DNA of 64,000 nucleotides from Candidatus Cloacimonetes bacterium HGW-Cloacimonetes-3 (GTDB lineage Bacteria > Cloacimonadota > Cloacimonadia > Cloacimonadales > Cloacimonadaceae). The notes under the pieces are model-generated. The model made no database searches, was not told where the DNA came from, and saw only the letters and a list, made by a program, of their open reading frames with translations. The translations under genes and the position numbers were made by a program. Location of the stretch: NCBI GenBank assembly GCA_002840645.1, contig PHBO01000003.1, positions 62,001 to 126,000 on the forward strand, written 5' to 3'. Each line of letters begins with the position of its first letter. Within the stretch, counting starts at the first letter, position 1. This document shows, in pieces, positions 570 through 15,036 of this stretch.

Positions 570-593
570 GGGCGTTCAGCCGAACACCCCTAC
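570..593. repeat. Degenerate GGGCGTT palindrome, intergenic copy
   Basis: The sequence GGGCGTTCAGCCGAACACCC is a slightly decayed copy of the palindrome found perfect at 10855-10880, 12587-12610 and 13003-13026 (stem GGGGCGTTC / GAACGCCCC). Flanking CCTAC is also shared. It lies between the sorted protein and kdd. Confidence 0.6.
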
Positions 594-8190: not shown

Positions 8191-9398
8191 TTATCAAGCC
8201 TTCGGTCAGTGTGATCAGCCCTGATCGAGTGGAACAAGGAATTGATTTACATCTTAATTGCTTCCCGGTGGACGCAGGGGACTTGCGGCTTGAATTAGAC
8301 GCATCTGTTGCCTACACGCCTCTGATCAATTCCCATGACCATTTGATCGGCAACTGGGTACCCCGTGCTGGTGACAAGCGCCCCTACGTGAATTCTCACA
8401 TCTGGGTGGAAGATATGAAGAACTCCTTCTCCTTCCACGAGCGTAATATCTTCTGGACTAATGATGGATTATTCAGGCTTTCAGAGCCAAATTCCCTGCT
8501 CTTAGCCAAGCTTGGCGCATACAAAAGCCTGTTCAGCGGCTGTGGCATAGTTCAAGATCATGCCCCCGTGCAAGATGATTTCTATTACAACAGTATGCCC
8601 ATTTATGTTCCCCGCACCTTCAGGCAATGCCATTCCATCACACTTGGCAATTGGTGGGGTGGGGAAAGCCCGGAAGACGAAATGATGCTTGCCCTGGAAA
8701 AGATGCCCTTCATCATCCACCTGGGCGAAGGCACGGATGGCATCACCAAGGCAGAATTTGCTGAGCTACTGCGTCGCGGGTTGCTAAAGGATAACACCCT
8801 GATGATTCATGGTATTGCCTTCAGCGCAGAGGAGATTGCCACTATCGCCATGGTGGGAGCATCGGTGTGTTGGTGCCCCAGCTCAAATTATTACCTGATA
8901 GGCGAAACCTTCAATATAGATGCAGCGCTTAAGTGTAAAGCAAATGTGTGCATCGGAACGGATTCCACTATGTCCGGCGGAGTGAACCTGATCGCCGAGT
9001 TACTTACCATTAAAAAGCACTTTCCCCATATAAACCCCTCTGAGCTTTACCGCATGATAACCCGGAATGCCGTTAAAGCCCTTAAACTCCCCGATATCTA
9101 TGGCACGCTTGATCCTGAGCAGTGTAACAACCTCCTGCTGGTGGACATGGTGGAAAAAGACCCCTTTGAGAACCTGTTTACCATCGAAGCTGCCACGATT
9201 AAGCTGCTGATTGTGGATGGCATCCCGCGCTTTGGCGATAGTATGTGGATGGAAACGCTTAGCCTGAACGAAGATGATTACAGTATCTTCCGCACCGGCA
9301 ACAAGGAGAAGTTTGTGCTTGGCGACCCCATGGATATGAACGACCAAATAGATGCCGTGCTCGGCTACCACAAGGATTTCCCCTATCTGCCCTTTTAA
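8187..9398 (+). CDS. Metal-dependent amidohydrolase/deaminase
   Basis: 403-residue amidohydrolase-superfamily protein. Metal and catalytic positions visible: the N-terminal SHDH motif after a short strand, IIHLGEG (HxxE), MIHGIAF, and the late GTDS aspartate. The HxxE and H-D spacing resembles the cytosine deaminase / S-adenosylhomocysteine deaminase branch. The first motif is HDH rather than the usual HxH preceded by aromatic residues, so the substrate is open. It is translationally coupled to the ETF alpha gene (ATGA), which is an unusual pairing and may mean both serve one amino-acid or purine fermentation route. Confidence 0.8.
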   Translation: MIIKPSVSVISPDRVEQGIDLHLNCFPVDAGDLRLELDASVAYTPLINSHDHLIGNWVPRAGDKRPYVNSHIWVEDMKNSFSFHERNIFWTNDGLFRLSEPNSLLLAKLGAYKSLFSGCGIVQDHAPVQDDFYYNSMPIYVPRTFRQCHSITLGNWWGGESPEDEMMLALEKMPFIIHLGEGTDGITKAEFAELLRRGLLKDNTLMIHGIAFSAEEIATIAMVGASVCWCPSSNYYLIGETFNIDAALKCKANVCIGTDSTMSGGVNLIAELLTIKKHFPHINPSELYRMITRNAVKALKLPDIYGTLDPEQCNNLLLVDMVEKDPFENLFTIEAATIKLLIVDGIPRFGDSMWMETLSLNEDDYSIFRTGNKEKFVLGDPMDMNDQIDAVLGYHKDFPYLPF

Positions 9399-9437
9399 TG
9401 GTTGGGGCAGATCCCTGTGTCTGCCCGTTAACCATCG

Positions 9438-10073
9438 ATGCTAATGGAAAAACACCTAAATATAAACGAGATATTCTATTCCTTACAGGGCGAATCCAGC
9501 TTTGCCGGCTACCCCTGCGTCTTTATCCGCCTTGCCGAATGTAATCTGCGTTGCAGCTATTGCGACACTCAATACGCCTTTGGCAAAGGGAAATCGCAGG
9601 CGATTAGCTCCATTATGGAGCAGGTGAAGGCATATCCCTGCCGGTTAGTGGAAATCACCGGTGGAGAGCCCATGTTGCAGGATGATGTAGCGGAGCTGTT
9701 TCCTGCCTTGCACGTAAGTGGTTATAAGATTCTGCTGGAGACCAATGGCTCTATCTATCTGGGTGATGTTCCGGATTATGTGATAAAAATCGTGGATGTG
9801 AAAACCCCCGGTAGCGGAGTGGGAGAGAGCTTCATGAAATGGAACCTCAAATGCCTGACCCCGCAGGATGAATTGAAGTTTGTTCTCACCGGCTATCACG
9901 ATTACCGCTTTGCACTTGATTTCATTGATGCAAATCTTCCCAAAGTACATGCCATCCACTTCTCACCCGTGCAAAGCCTGCTCCATCCCAACGATCTGGC
10001 TGCATGGATGCTGGAAGACGGCGTTAACGCCAAGCTATCTCTGCAATTACACAAGCTGCTGCAAATCCCCTAA
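9438..10073 (+). CDS. queE: 7-carboxy-7-deazaguanine synthase
   Basis: Radical SAM enzyme that makes 7-carboxy-7-deazaguanine for queuosine in tRNA. 211 residues, with the shortened domain typical of QueE. Motifs: NEIFYSLQGES at the N-terminus, C35, C39 and C42 in CNLRCSYC, then EITGGEPMLQ. Two starts (ATG at 9438 and 9444) are possible and neither has a strong Shine-Dalgarno. No other queuosine gene is adjacent. It borders the accessory island; its stop is only 3 bp from the convergent family A gene. Confidence 0.9.
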   Translation: MLMEKHLNINEIFYSLQGESSFAGYPCVFIRLAECNLRCSYCDTQYAFGKGKSQAISSIMEQVKAYPCRLVEITGGEPMLQDDVAELFPALHVSGYKILLETNGSIYLGDVPDYVIKIVDVKTPGSGVGESFMKWNLKCLTPQDELKFVLTGYHDYRFALDFIDANLPKVHAIHFSPVQSLLHPNDLAAWMLEDGVNAKLSLQLHKLLQIP

Positions 10074-10076
10074 TTT

Positions 10077-10505
10077 CTAAAGCATAGCGCACAAACGCTC
10101 ATAGCCCGTTATCGGCGCAAGTAAGCCTGCTTCTATTGCCGTTTTAACGCTTATACAGGGCAGTTCCTGCGCATATATCTCCGCTCTGGTGATAGTCTGC
10201 AAATTCACCCCCAAACTGCTTGCCATAGCGTGCATCAGCTTCATATACACATTGCGCCAGTTCAGATATTGCCCTTTGCGGCTTACCATTGCCGCGTAAT
10301 ACTTCAAATCTGTGGCATAGCTATCCGAGGGTTTTATCGCCTTTAAGTTATTGGCTATCAAGGTGAAACGCGTATTGCTACCCGATGCCTTGGGTATCGT
10401 GTGCCGCCTACACAGCAACCTATCCAAACCCGGATGATAGTAATATATCAAGCCGTCACACTTGCCAGAATACGCCTTTAGAATGTTCTTTAATACTACT
10501 TGCAT
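10077..10505 (-). CDS. Family A protein, copy 1 (unknown)
   Basis: 142 residues with Shine-Dalgarno GGAGGCAAC before the ATG. It aligns over its whole length with the genes at 15131-15583 and 46264-46707. Shared blocks: AYSGKCDGLIYY near the N-terminus, IPKASGSNTRFTLIANNLK, SYATDLKYYAAM, WRNVYMKLMHAM and a C-terminal SVKTAIEAGLL. No signal peptide, no membrane helix and no catalytic motif are visible. I do not recognise the family; the N-terminal GxxSGxxDxxxY pattern faintly recalls Bacteroidota proteins of the DUF6266 type, which is unverified. It faces outward at the left end of the island. Confidence 0.75.
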   Translation of the reverse strand: MQVVLKNILKAYSGKCDGLIYYYHPGLDRLLCRRHTIPKASGSNTRFTLIANNLKAIKPSDSYATDLKYYAAMVSRKGQYLNWRNVYMKLMHAMASSLGVNLQTITRAEIYAQELPCISVKTAIEAGLLAPITGYERLCAML

Positions 10506-10518
10506 GTTGCCTCCATTT

Positions 10519-10568
10519 TTTATTACTTCATCACTTCATCACTTCATCACATCATTACTTCATCACTG
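10519..10568. repeat. 8-base tandem repeat TTCATCAC
   Basis: Five to six imperfect units of TTCATCAC / ATCATTAC between the start of family A copy 1 and its upstream box. Similar units occur as GAAGTGAT inside the gene at 14240-14809 (about 14468-14495) and near 15041. All lie in the island. Confidence 0.7.
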
Positions 10569-10591
10569 TCTATATATATACGGGCTACGCG
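10569..10591 (-). promoter_or_regulatory. Family A upstream box, copy 1
   Basis: Read on the - strand this is CGCGTAGCCCGTATATATA plus one TA unit and GA. The same box, one TA shorter, is at 15068-15088 before family A copy 2. It ends 63 bases before the start codon here and 42 bases in copy 2. The TATATA part may be a -10 element; the CGCGTAGCCCG part may be an operator. The two boxes are inverted relative to each other and enclose the replication module. Confidence 0.55.
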
Positions 10592-10592
10592 T

Positions 10593-10662
10593 ATCTTGGA
10601 GTTCAAAGCGCCTCTGCTAATTACATATTTACAATATACTTAGGGCGCTTCGGACTTCAAGA
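10593..10662 (+). repeat. TTGGAGTTCAAA hairpin element, copy 1
   Basis: Arms 10593-10612 and 10643-10662 pair 19 of 20 positions on the + strand as RNA, including two G-U pairs and one A-C mismatch. The loop starts TCTGCTAATTACA. The outer arm TTGGAGTTCAAAGCGCC and the loop start are shared with copies at 10886-10952 and 14166-14240. Confidence 0.8.
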
Positions 10663-10678
10663 TAACCACCCAGACGCC

Positions 10679-10746
10679 TTTGAAGTCCGAACCGGCTTCA
10701 AGTTAAGTAATAATTGCGAACCATGACAGCCGGTTTGAACTCCAAA
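10679..10746 (-). repeat. TTGGAGTTCAAA hairpin element, variant with CCGG inner stem
   Basis: Read on the - strand, the left arm TTTGGAGTTCAAACCGGC (10729-10746) pairs with the right arm (10679-10696) at 17 of 18 positions with two G-U pairs. The outer arm is the same as in the other copies while the inner stem is CCGGC instead of GCGCC. Confidence 0.75.
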
Positions 10747-10854
10747 CGCTCTCCCTTTCTTTCATGGTTTACTGTTAGGTTGGGTCCCACAAGGACATCG
10801 CTTACGGCACAGGCGAAGCTCAGCACAGAGGGGGATGATGCGCAAATAGTTGTT

Positions 10855-10880
10855 GTAGGGGCGTTCGGCTGAACGCCCAA
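10855..10880. repeat. GGGCGTT palindrome, intergenic copy
   Basis: GGGGCGTTCGGCTGAACGCCC, with stem GGGGCGTTC / GAACGCCC(C) and loop GGCT. Identical in sequence to the copies that lie in frame inside the helicase and primase genes. Read on the - strand it would encode the same LGVQPNAPT peptide but no gene is supported here. Confidence 0.85.
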
Positions 10881-10885
10881 CCACA

Positions 10886-10952
10886 CTTGGAGTTCAAAGC
10901 GCCTCTGCTATTTGCAAATATACGAGAATCTTAGGGCGCTTTGGACTTCAAG
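10886..10952 (+). repeat. TTGGAGTTCAAA hairpin element, copy 2
   Basis: Arms 10886-10903 and 10935-10952 pair at all 18 positions in + strand RNA, two of them G-U. Same TCTGCTA loop start as copies 1 and 3. Confidence 0.8.
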
Positions 10953-10982
10953 GGTGACATGGTTCGCAGGCTGGAATCCAGT

Positions 10983-11105
10983 TCTTTTCCCTCTTTCCCT
11001 CTTTTCCTCTATGTTAGCCTTCTCTTCCCTCTTTTCCTCTATGTTAGCCTTCTTTTCCCTCTTTGTTAGCCTTCTCTTTCCTCTTTTCCTCTTTGTTAAT
11101 TCTTC
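10983..11105. repeat. Pyrimidine-rich tandem repeat, about 30-base unit
   Basis: Units of the type CTCTTTTCCTCTATGTTAGC followed by CTTCTCTTCC are repeated about four times with decay towards the right. The opposite strand is purine-rich and gives an apparent lysine/arginine/glutamate-rich reading frame, which I do not accept as a gene. Confidence 0.75.
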
Positions 11106-11124
11106 TTTTTTAATCCACCGCACA

Positions 11125-11223
11125 GGGTTAACAGGGTTAACGAGGTTAACCAGTTTCCTTATATATTATGCTCACTTTAATCTGAGAGCAATATATATAG
11201 ATTCTCGTTAACCACGTTAACCC
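11125..11223. repeat. Inverted repeat with arms made of tandem GGTTAAC units
   Basis: Left arm 11125-11144 and right arm 11204-11223 match at 18 of 20 positions; each arm contains two GGTTAAC units and a third follows the left arm. Inside lies a second AT-rich inverted pair (TATATATTATGCTC and GAGAGCAATATATATA). It lies just after the stop of the helicase gene on its strand and could end its transcript, although no U-run follows. Confidence 0.65.
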
Positions 11224-11241
11224 ATACCTATTTGATAGGTG

Positions 11242-12678
11242 TTATTCAATTAATCCTAAGCCTTTAATATTGCGTGCATTACCATGTCCAACCGCAATTT
11301 CATACCCCTCCGCTCTCAGTTCACTTGCCAAAGTTCTGGCATTACTGCTACGAAAGTTGTTTTCCTTACACCAGGTGTTGTAATTGGCAGTGAAGTCTTT
11401 CAAGGCAGTAGTGGCGTAATCAGCGATAATATACCGTTCCTCTATGAATTGCTTCAGGGAATCGCACTCATGCGCATACTCGTTCAGAGCGGTTTTCATG
11501 GATTCCGGTAGCAGCTTCATGCCTTCTTTCTGGTATAGCTTCCAGCCGTCCACAATCCATTTCAGGATGCCTGCCTTTTCACGTATTAACGTATCCTCAA
11601 AGCGTTCTATGCGTTCACTTTCCGGCACTTTATAGGCAAATGGCACCAGGCAGATACGGCGCATCATGCCGCCATCGTGCACATTGAAGAGAGGCTTGTG
11701 ATTGCTTCGTATCCACAGCTTGTGAGTGGGCATAAAGGGCGTAACGCTCTTGAAAACCACCTTGGCGGCTATCATATCACGGCTGCATAGTTGCTTGATA
11801 ATCATATCGTTATAGGTGGCACGCTCGGGGATTTCGTTGGAAGTGGCGAAGCGGATTCCGCGTAGATTTGCCATGTTTTCCAGTGCTAACCTCTGGTCTT
11901 GCACCTTGCTTTTTATCAGGATGGTGGAATCTATCTCTTGGTGGAAGCTGCCAAAGATGCGGTTCAGCACCTCAAAGAAGGTGGTTTTGCCGTTGGCACC
12001 GCTGCCATAAGCGAAGAACAGCTTTTCCTCCAATACCTTACCGCTAAGACTAAGCCCCACAGCCTTTTGCACAAAGCGAATAAGCTCCTCATCCGCGCAG
12101 AATATCTGGCGGAGGAAGGCTTCCCAGCTCGGGCAAGTCGCATCAGGGCTGTAAGCCACAGGGAAACGGCGGGTTAGGAACAGCGGACGGATGCGCACGG
12201 GGTCGTAAACAAGCTGGTTGGTATCGGTGTTGTAAACCGCATTCTCCAAGGCGCAGAGATGCTCGTGGCTGTCGCAATCATAGCTAAGCAAACTAAGCTC
12301 GTTTCGGCTTTCAAGGTGTTTCTTTATCTGGCTTAAAGACCGCTGATTGGCAAGCTTTTTGGCAATCTCTTTCAGATGGTAGTTGGATTGATTGGCGATT
12401 AGCTTGTTTCGCATATCTTCCAGCGCATCAGATAGTTGTTGCGCCTTGATGTCCGTGTTCCAATGCCTGCCGTCCCAGTGTAGCCAACGCTCTTCATCGC
12501 GTATGTAGCGGTGATTATCGCCGTAGTTGGCTATGAATATCGCGCTGGTGGTGGCATCAAAGCTGTCGTTGATATGCGCCGGCAAGGTAGGGGCGTTCGG
12601 CTGAACGCCCAATGTGGTAACGGGAGGGGGCGTTATGCCTAACGCCCCTACATTATTATCAATATTCATGTTACTCAT
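11242..12678 (-). CDS. P4-type phage/plasmid primase-helicase (D5 N-terminal plus SF3 helicase)
   Basis: 478 residues. Residues about 45-200 match the D5_N-type region of phage/plasmid replication proteins; the SF3 helicase follows with Walker A GSGANGKTT at 225-233 and later GIRFATSNEIPE, KQLCSRDMIAAK and PTHKLWIRSNHKP motifs. It should unwind DNA at a replication origin together with the primase encoded upstream, which it overlaps by ATGA. Oddity: residues 10-17 (VGALGITP) and 24-31 (GVQPNAPT) are encoded by two palindromic repeats inserted in frame. The start is the coupled ATG at 12678. No integrase is seen nearby. Confidence 0.9.
   Translation of the reverse strand: MSNMNIDNNVGALGITPPPVTTLGVQPNAPTLPAHINDSFDATTSAIFIANYGDNHRYIRDEERWLHWDGRHWNTDIKAQQLSDALEDMRNKLIANQSNYHLKEIAKKLANQRSLSQIKKHLESRNELSLLSYDCDSHEHLCALENAVYNTDTNQLVYDPVRIRPLFLTRRFPVAYSPDATCPSWEAFLRQIFCADEELIRFVQKAVGLSLSGKVLEEKLFFAYGSGANGKTTFFEVLNRIFGSFHQEIDSTILIKSKVQDQRLALENMANLRGIRFATSNEIPERATYNDMIIKQLCSRDMIAAKVVFKSVTPFMPTHKLWIRSNHKPLFNVHDGGMMRRICLVPFAYKVPESERIERFEDTLIREKAGILKWIVDGWKLYQKEGMKLLPESMKTALNEYAHECDSLKQFIEERYIIADYATTALKDFTANYNTWCKENNFRSSNARTLASELRAEGYEIAVGHGNARNIKGLGLIE
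12587..12610. repeat. GGGCGTT palindrome inside helicase gene (GVQPNAPT)
   Basis: Perfect stem GGGGCGTTC / GAACGCCC with loop GGCT. On the coding (-) strand it is read as GVQPNAPT, helicase residues 24-31. Identical to intergenic copy 10855-10880. Confidence 0.9.
12626..12651. repeat. GGGCGTT palindrome, loop variant, inside helicase gene (VGALGITP)
   Basis: Stem GGGGCGTTA / TAACGCCCC with loop TGCC. On the coding strand it gives VGALGITP, helicase residues 10-17. The same element is at 12952-12976 in the neighbouring gene, in the same frame. Confidence 0.9.
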
Positions 12679-12951
12679 ACTTTAACTCCATACTGCTCTG
12701 CTACATAGAACAATGAACCCAGCTTGATGGAACGGACGCTGTGGAAACTGCGCCAGTGCGCATCAAGGCTTCTTTGCGTGTCGTGGTAATTGGGATTGTT
12801 TAAGAACATATCCCACAAGGCTTTGCCCTGTTCGCCAAAACCGGCGTAGAGGGCTTGCCCTATCTTTATCCAATCACGGTAAACGATTGGGATTTTGGAC
12901 ATTGTAGATATAATTGCCTCCGCTTTGGCGTAGTCGTCCGTGGCGGAAGGA

Positions 12952-12976
12952 GAGGGCGTTATGCCTAACGCCCCTA
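12952..12976. repeat. GGGCGTT palindrome, loop variant, inside primase linker (VGALGITP)
   Basis: Stem GGGCGTTA / TAACGCCC with loop TGCC, read in frame on the - strand as VGALGITP. It matches 12626-12651 almost base for base. Confidence 0.9.
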
Positions 12977-13002
12977 CGGATGTGTTTTTAGGGTTGTTTA
13001 CG

Positions 13003-13026
13003 GTAGGGGCGTTCGGCTGAACGCCC
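13003..13026. repeat. GGGCGTT palindrome inside primase linker (GVQPNAPT)
   Basis: Stem GGGGCGTTC / GAACGCCC with loop GGCT, read on the - strand as GVQPNAPT. Same sequence and same frame as 12587-12610. Confidence 0.9.
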
Positions 13027-13205
13027 GATGTAGCAACGGGTTTGAGGTGATTGGTTTCGCGCGGAAAGGGAATCTCCATCACGCTGACCGCCTGTTTGTA
13101 GGTGACTGTTGCATCCAAAGGATGGCAATTCGGATTGATGAGCAAATTGGGGTCGTAAGTCATAAAACACGCCCTTGCCCAGTCCGATGTGGTATCGCAG
13201 ATGTG

Positions 13206-13772
13206 CTATAGCGCGTACTCTATCTGTAAGGCAAGGAAGGTGTAAACCCGCCTGTAGATTGCTTCGTCCACGATGGGCTTGGTGAACCTGGCTATCAGCT
13301 TCACGCCATCCACAGCGCTAAGAAACGCATAATGGATGTAAGGCATCTTACTGATGGCAAGCTCTTTAAGCGCTTCCGGATTGGGAACATGATCCAGATC
13401 AAAGATTTGGAACTGCGCTTTTTCCACATTCAGGTTGTTACGCTTCTTGTGCATCAGAGAACCGCTGAACCAGGGCAAAGAGGTTTTGGCGTTACGCTGT
13501 GCGTCCTTATCCGTCATTTTGCGCAGATTGGTGATGGCGCGTTTGAGGTCATAGCCCTCGTAATCGCCTTTGCGCATACAGTCTGCTACATATCCGATGT
13601 CTCTCACGGTGATGCTTTCGGGGTGTCGCACGCTACGCCCAACCGTGACGGGGTAGCGCATTATGTCGTATTGAAGGGGGTCTTCGGGGCAGGGAAGCTC
13701 CGAAGCGTTGTTGCAATAGGCGGAGGTATCATCCGACCGCGGACAATTGGTAGCTAAAGATATCATGGTCAA
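13206..13772 (-). pseudogene. N-terminal part of primase (BT4734/VirE-N-like), ended by in-frame TAG
   Basis: 188 residues up to a TAG codon. The conserved FQIFDLDH stretch and VDGVKLIARF correspond to the catalytic core of BT4734-type primase/virulence-associated E N-terminal domains found beside D5/P4 helicases. The domain is cut before its end; the missing part follows directly in the same frame after the stop, so a full protein of about 365 residues existed or is still made by read-through. The stop is one base change from CAG or TGG. The start ATG at 13772 lacks an obvious strong Shine-Dalgarno (a TTGACC precedes it). Confidence 0.75.
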
Positions 13773-14165
13773 TCCCTTAGGCGGTCTGCCTATCTAAATC
13801 GTTATTCCCACAAATGCCAGCCTAACTGACGCTAATACATAGTGTTAACACAAGGGAAAGGGAAAGCCCCAGCCCTATGGTGCAAAGATAGGAGGAATAG
13901 GTATTATGTCCAGTAGAATATGAGGTATTTTTGATGTTTTTGTAGCTTGTTTTTGTAGCTTGTTGTGGCAGTGAGAGTAAAAGATATGTGTGTATTATAG
14001 CATGTGTTTATGAAACTTATCTGCGCTTAGAAACATGATAGGTGAAGCCATCCTATTGCTTTGCACTTACTTGAAACTTTGAGCAATTGGAGTTCAATTT
14101 GGCTGTTTTATTTTGCGATTATTTCCTAATTTTTAGCCGGATTGGATTTCAATGGCGTGCGTGGG
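13773..14165. other. Island intergenic region between primase and unknown gene
   Basis: No gene is seen. It is AT-rich and contains a hairpin related to the TTGGAGTTCAAA elements at 14086-14153 and a short duplication TTTTTGTAGCTTGT (about 13932-13964). Promoters for the - strand primase operon should lie here but none is clear. Confidence 0.5.
14086..14153 (+). repeat. TTGGAGTTCAA hairpin element, diverged copy
   Basis: Arms 14086-14104 and 14135-14153. As + strand RNA all 19 positions pair, five of them as G-U or U-G; the opposite strand would have five A-C mismatches. The start ATTGGAGTTCAA links it to the other copies but the inner stem (TTTGGCT) differs. Confidence 0.75.
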
Positions 14166-14240
14166 GATTCTTGAAGTCCAAAGCGCCATAAGTAATTTGT
14201 ATATGTGTAATTAGCAGAGGCGCTTTGAACTCCAAGAATC
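14166..14240 (-). repeat. TTGGAGTTCAAA hairpin element, copy 3, at the end of the unknown gene
   Basis: On the - strand the arms (14219-14240 and 14166-14187) pair at all 22 positions with two G-U pairs; the loop start TCTGCTAATTACA equals copy 1. Its first base is the last base of the stop codon of the gene at 14240-14809, so it would form a hairpin at the 3' end of that mRNA. No U-run follows, so it may protect or mark the 3' end rather than terminate. Confidence 0.8.
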
Positions 14241-14809
14241 TATTGCTCCCAGCGCATTTGTTTCCCCTGAAAGAGATGGTGTTTTATGTAGGCTACCGCT
14301 TCGTGATGTCCATCCTTTTCGGCTTGGGCAAGCAGACGGCGGATAGCAGCGGATTGGCGGCGATAGGCAGCGCGGTCTTCATCGTGGAAGCATTTTATCC
14401 CACCGGTGGGGAGGGTAGTTTCTTTGATGTATTGGGTTAGGGATTGGATTTCATCTTCGATGGGGTTATGAAGTGATGAAGTGACGGAGTGATGATGAGA
14501 AGGGGTATTGGCTTTTTGGGCGATTAGCTGGTTAAGGCGTTTCTTCACGGCTTTCAGGGTGGCTTCATCGGTCATTTTTACGGGTGCAAGGTGGTAGATG
14601 GTTGCCATCGCTTCGGGCAAGGGAATAATCATCTGTAAGGCGGTTTCGAGCACGCTGCTATAGATGGGGGTGTTGGGGTATTGCATCAGGATGTTTAGTA
14701 GCTTTGTGCCTTCCCAATCGGGGTAGTTGTTTAGCAATTCTAATGCATTATTCGCAGACGAGACGTCTGCAACTCCGGGGTAGTTATTTAGCAATTCTGT
14801 AGCTGTCAT
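14240..14809 (-). CDS. Island protein of unknown function with an internal palindrome-flanked duplication
   Basis: 189 residues, start ATG at 14809 preceded by GGAGGAAGACA. No domain is recognised. The N-terminus contains ELLNNYP twice with GVADVSSANNAL between: a 22-base direct repeat with one mismatch flanks a palindrome (GCAGACG TCT CGTCTGC). The middle (SHHHSVTSSLHN) is coded by the same 8-base repeat seen near 10519. The C-terminus has a charged helix (RAAYRRQSAAIRRLLAQAEK) that looks like a coiled or DNA/RNA-binding helix. It is on the same strand as the primase-helicase operon and upstream of it; a role in that module is inferred from position only. Confidence 0.65.
   Translation of the reverse strand: MTATELLNNYPGVADVSSANNALELLNNYPDWEGTKLLNILMQYPNTPIYSSVLETALQMIIPLPEAMATIYHLAPVKMTDEATLKAVKKRLNQLIAQKANTPSHHHSVTSSLHNPIEDEIQSLTQYIKETTLPTGGIKCFHDEDRAAYRRQSAAIRRLLAQAEKDGHHEAVAYIKHHLFQGKQMRWEQ
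14728..14789. repeat. 22-base direct repeat flanking a GCAGACG palindrome
   Basis: On the coding (-) strand GAATTGCTAAATAACTACCC and GAATTGCTAAACAACTACCC (plus CG) enclose a short segment with the palindrome GCAGACG-TCT-CGTCTGC. The layout is that of a small palindromic element with a duplicated target, or of a tandem duplication with an insert. It stays in frame. Confidence 0.7.
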
Positions 14810-14880
14810 TGTCTTCCTCCAAGATAGGCTAAGTTATTGGGGACATAATGGCATAGTGGCATATATTGTCAAGAGATATT

Positions 14881-15036
14881 AGTGGAAAAGTGGAAGGGTG
14901 AAAGAGTGAAACAAGTGGAGAATTTCAGTTGCAGGGTAATAGATTATGGAATGATATATCACCTTTACAAAGCCTAAAAACAGGCAGTCAAACCATAAAT
15001 CGGGTTTCACTTTTCCACTCTTCCACTTTTCCACTT
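14881..15036. repeat. Inverted repeat with arms made of tandem GTGGAAA-type units
   Basis: Left arm 14881-14912 (units AGTGGAAA, AGTGGAAG, GGTGAAAG, AGTGAAAC) and right arm 15004-15036 are reverse complements apart from one gap and about two changes. The spacer of about 90 bases has no coding potential that I can support. Confidence 0.75.

Follow-up and report, generated by a model that had tools for sequence, protein, structure and literature searches.

The window analysed here, a stretch of DNA of 64,000 nt, carries two adjacent replication genes with four short palindromes that are read in frame within them, as reported by the first-pass annotation; we have refined their coordinates within two bases. 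Each of the two ORFs concerned contains the peptides GVQPNAPT and VGALGITP once and in opposite order, just as the annotation had described. The genes and the copies of the palindrome, which we refer to as REPs, are the following:

11242-12678, minus strand: D5/P4-type primase-helicase gene (PF08706, D5_N, residues 47-194; TIGR01613), host to one REP dimer
12675-13163, minus strand: primase C-terminal ORF (PF08707, PriCT_2, residues 93-155), host to one REP dimer
13206-13772, minus strand: primase N-terminal ORF, in the same frame as 12675-13163, ending at an in-frame TAG
570-593, minus strand: REP copy with one mismatch, GTAGGGGTGTTCGGCTGAACGCCC, not covered by a long ORF
10855-10878, plus strand: intact REP copy, intergenic
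12587-12610, plus strand: REP copy GTAGGGGCGTTCGGCTGAACGCCC, antisense in the helicase gene, read as GVQPNAPT (residues 24-31)
12628-12651, minus strand: REP copy GTAGGGGCGTTAGGCATAACGCCC, sense in the helicase gene, read as VGALGITP (residues 10-17)
12954-12977, minus strand: REP copy, sense in the primase C-terminal ORF, read as VGALGITP (residues 63-70)
13003-13026, plus strand: REP copy, antisense in the primase C-terminal ORF, read as GVQPNAPT (residues 47-54)

An intact copy measures 24 nt and consists of GTAG, a perfect 8-bp stem and a short loop of 4 nt; both forms of the repeat fold computationally as ....((((((((....)))))))), and the GTAG stands unpaired at the foot of the hairpin in all intact copies. 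The two loop types had been taken to suggest two subfamilies, but they are stem and loop variants of a single 24-nt family that differ by one loop base and at the innermost stem pair, where a compensatory change replaces C-G by A-T. The REP pattern is matched 12 times in the window, both strands counted, against 0.08 matches expected from dinucleotide shuffles, and chance can hence be excluded; a search of Rfam with positions 9000-15000 returned no match. The pair in the helicase gene (12587-12610 / 12628-12651) is an inverted dimer with its GTAG ends pointing outward and a 17-nt spacer, folding as single-stranded DNA at -22.6 kcal/mol, whereas the GTAG ends of the inverted dimer in the primase (12954-12977 / 13003-13026) point inward across a spacer of 25 nt. 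As to the two non-coding copies that had been listed, the one at 10855-10878 is indeed intact, and that at 570-593 departs from the family by a single mismatch.

The window also harbors a second palindromic repeat family of about 67 bp (CTTGGAGTTCAAAGCGCC...GGCGCTTTGGACTTCAAG; positions 10595-10661, 10886-10952 and 14170-14236), for which nine places in the genome lie within three mismatches of one arm. A different Y1 transposase gene (C12:14889-15137, locus L007) lies between two of these places, much as in the transposases with flanking TIRs described by Di Nocera et al. (2013; PMC3733652).

That the palindrome is a dispersed element supplying genes with extra peptides is borne out by the genome at large (2.68 Mb searched, 97.5% complete), in which GTAGGGGCG..CGCCC has 16 exact matches on 8 contigs and its reversed control none. 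The host is a member of Cloacimonadota; G010, from the same family, matches Candidatus Cloacimonadota bacterium SM3-B16.2 at 100% identity across 3,489 bases. The core GTTNGG is present in 13 of these 16, and the window copy at 570-593, with its one mismatch, is a further member of the family beyond them. The copies are dispersed singly and as inverted dimers (the latter on contigs C24 and C28); several are identical in sequence, and their spacers and flanks show no sequence relation to each other. Eight of the 16 exact matches lie in frame within long ORFs of four genes, namely two each in the helicase gene, the primase C-terminal ORF, a type ISP restriction-modification (R-M) gene and the ORF of a candidate REP-associated tyrosine transposase (RAYT). 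The insert sites fall outside or between the recognised domains in all four: the helicase pair precedes the D5_N domain, the primase pair precedes PriCT_2, and the R-M pair is situated between the methylase and Type_ISP_C domains. Every antisense in-frame copy in this genome reads GVQPNAPT (5/5) and every sense copy VGAxGxxP (3/3), counts that are not independent since the helicase and R-M dimers agree both in orientation and in having a spacer of 17 nt.

The first-pass annotation treated the primase as one gene; its two palindromes are present in the C-terminal ORF, but an in-frame TAG at 13206-13208 separates the primase into two ORFs. The nearest homologue, from a genome of the same genus (G005), has a lysine at this position, and the TAG may reflect a pseudogene, a sequence error or readthrough. 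As the primase is perhaps a pseudogene, its two REP copies say little on the tolerance of such inserts. The helicase of G005 starts in the same manner, with an ATG overlapping the primase stop, so that the helicase REP pair is truly coding, provided that the gene is expressed. A fragment of a second helicase C-terminus, 75% identical, is found elsewhere in the same genome (G000:C16:282-449, L083) and suggests another copy of the replication element. The closest helicase and primase, both from G005 and 71% and 62% identical, respectively, lack the REPs and the peptides alike, in keeping with the earlier view that the peptides are additions. Homologues of the R-M protein possess a length-variable loop without a REP at the insertion point, which in G045 and G047 comprises only about nine residues. 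The linkers are too diverged for a base-exact empty site to be obtained in the helicase and primase comparison with G005 or in that of the R-M homologues.

Four REP copies cluster at G000:C15:131042-131502, and it was this list of copies, not the Y1_Tnp profile, that led to the candidate RAYT, an ORF of 184 aa at G000:C15:131162-131713 with two REPs just upstream and two in frame inside. GVQPNAPT consequently occurs twice in its translation, near the N-terminus (residues 13-20) and between the HUH and Tyr motifs (residues 107-114); should translation begin at a more downstream position, the N-terminal copy could fall outside the gene. The protein carries the motifs NHFH, WQ and YIIHNP and aligns with the NCBIfam REP-associated tyrosine transposase NF047646 at an E-value of 4e-18, a score under the curated cut-off, and with E. 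coli TnpA_REP (4ER8) at an E-value of 0.002; the PF01797 profile gave no match to it. A Pfam Y1_Tnp search of the genome missed this RAYT and recovered six other transposase genes, none of which stands beside these REPs, and these were rejected as partners of the repeat.

Among 110 RAYT homologues spanning many phyla, 72 have a GTAG hairpin in the linker between HUH and WQ, compared with 6 in the reversed-sequence control, a count that ignores shared ancestry. Hairpin calls numbered 130 in 19.8 kb of linker vs. 177 in 419 kb of flanks, both figures being affected by hairpins tagged at both ends, which can be called on both strands. Many of the linkers (L084-L193) in fact contain such "double foot" hairpins with GTAG at either end, which makes a single palindrome readable on both strands. 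In RAYT linkers, antisense copies with a single foot are read as ...PT in 15 of 22 cases, as ...PL in 6 and as ...PY in 1, numbers that likewise disregard common descent.

In the relatives G010, G015 and G045, RAYT genes are adjoined by REP variants of their own. Hairpins of the GTAGGGGCG type occur in 38 of the 98 genomes searched, often with genome-specific stems and in up to 94 copies, and in-gene REPs of other genomes use other frames. In some relatives with many related hairpins, no homologue of the cognate RAYT was detected; G009 (L259-L278) is such a genome, in which the GTAG hairpin pattern is matched 94 times, mostly by a 25-nt form, with some of the matches arranged in tandem at a spacing of 66 or 45 nt. 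The view that units of 24 nt are preferred within genes for keeping the frame found no support, as 13 of 28 25-nt copies of G009 reside within long ORFs, which were called mechanically.

We consider it highly probable (roughly 0.87) that the palindromes are GTAG-tagged REPs, presumably moved by a subclass 2.4-type RAYT of the same genome and inserted both into intergenic DNA and into genes. This reading builds on the anatomy of the repeat, its copy number, its co-location with the RAYT gene, the in-frame copies in four genes and the peptide-free homologues; against it count the NF047646 score under the cut-off and the missing PF01797 match, the failure to obtain a base-exact empty site, the hairpin-rich relatives in which no homologue of this RAYT was detected, and the lack of a REP directly downstream of the RAYT gene. 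The REPs would then be non-autonomous 24-nt units composed of a GTAG guide, an 8-bp stem and a 4-nt loop, whose single-stranded hairpins are presumably copied or moved by the cognate RAYT through HUH/Tyr single-strand cleavage. Monomers and inverted dimers would thereby be inserted into intergenic DNA and genes, and insertions of the latter kind would survive if the frame is kept and the site lies in linkers or flexible ends, adding peptides such as VGALGITP or GVQPNAPT to the protein. We infer that purifying selection filters the insertions and that the peptides are nearly neutral.

Selection might, however, have retained the in-gene REPs for a function, either as a gene-regulating DNA or mRNA hairpin or as a useful linker peptide, instead of merely tolerating them. 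The tagged hairpin in the same linker of most RAYT homologues speaks for such a role, as does the frame bias, with ...PT prevailing over ...PY in the linkers and GVQPNAPT being read from every antisense in-frame copy of the genome studied here. Yet the host genes are unrelated, their insertion points differ, close homologues lack the inserts, dimer partners and related RAYTs are non-independent samples, and the frames change in other genomes; we therefore regard a selected function as rather unlikely. A narrower version confined to the RAYT linker is doubtful as well, and we offer it as a conjecture: the REP there would not be passive, in that the transposase gene would need a copy that can be translated, be it as source, as regulator or as specificity determinant. 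This demand would hold the whole REP family to a preferred, readable frame and make it unusually apt to spread through coding genes.

That recombination or gene conversion among copies already present, and not RAYT-driven transposition, is the main route by which the REPs spread might be read from the matching orientation and spacer length of the helicase and R-M dimers and from the sequence identity of several copies. We judge this improbable, as the RAYT gene lies together with REPs both here and in relatives, and the unrelated spacers and flanks leave no homology beyond the REP itself to guide an exchange. A family of the Rickettsia palindromic element type, as favoured by the first-pass annotation, or some other MITE unrelated to RAYTs would behave in the same way, giving genes short peptides through in-frame palindromes; with a tag that is GTAG and not CGTC, and with a RAYT gene at the repeat cluster of the same genome, this assignment is very improbable and we have abandoned it. 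Nothing beyond the fact that the positions are translated speaks for the peptides as native, conserved residues with coincidental palindromes. This view is refuted, for practical purposes, by their absence from homologues, by the same DNA between genes and in unrelated genes, and by the chance expectation given above.

REPs in genes are not without precedent. Intragenic GTAG REPs, many of them in DNA synthesis and repair genes, were reported together with the definition of this class (Di Nocera et al., 2013; PMC3733652), and transposase genes of subclass 2.4 carry in-frame REPs, generally between HUH and Tyr (Quentin et al., 2018; PMC6006769). Both phenomena had thus already been published for other phyla; what is new are the occurrence of such a family in Cloacimonadota, three host genes newly seen to carry REPs and a preference of reading frame that recurs. 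Our full-text literature search, of incomplete coverage, turned up no earlier description of REPs for Cloacimonadota. A coding-tolerated, transposase-linked REP family can now be placed in this phylum, and the fact that most of the homologues surveyed hold a REP within the transposase gene itself poses the testable question whether translatable REPs are selected or merely tolerated.

The family shares with the GTAG-tagged REPs (PMC3733652) the GTAG end tag, a small loop, a stem within the 6-13 bp of the class, compensatory stem variants, inverted dimers with GTAG outward or inward, copies in genes and the association with a RAYT (REPtron). It differs in that half of the exact matches lie in genes and in its copy number (16), which is low for the class; moreover, Cloacimonadota was not noticed among the phyla that the article names. 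Judged from its motifs and the placement of its REPs, the RAYT resembles TnpA_REP of subclass 2.4 (PMC6006769), whose consensus comprises the HUH motif NH[IFV]H, WQ and the Tyr motif YIxNNP: NHFH and WQ are present, the REP stem begins with three G-C pairs, and REPs stand beside the transposase gene and in frame between the HUH and Tyr motifs, whereas YIIHNP deviates from the consensus at one position. The likeness to RPE-4 and RPE-6, members of the CGTC-tagged superfamily without a dedicated transposase (Di Nocera et al., 2013; PMC3733652), consists in the in-frame palindromes by which peptides are added to genes; the GTAG tag and the RAYT set the present family apart. Hence, the Rickettsia-like addition of peptides by palindromes has its origin here in a different REP superfamily.
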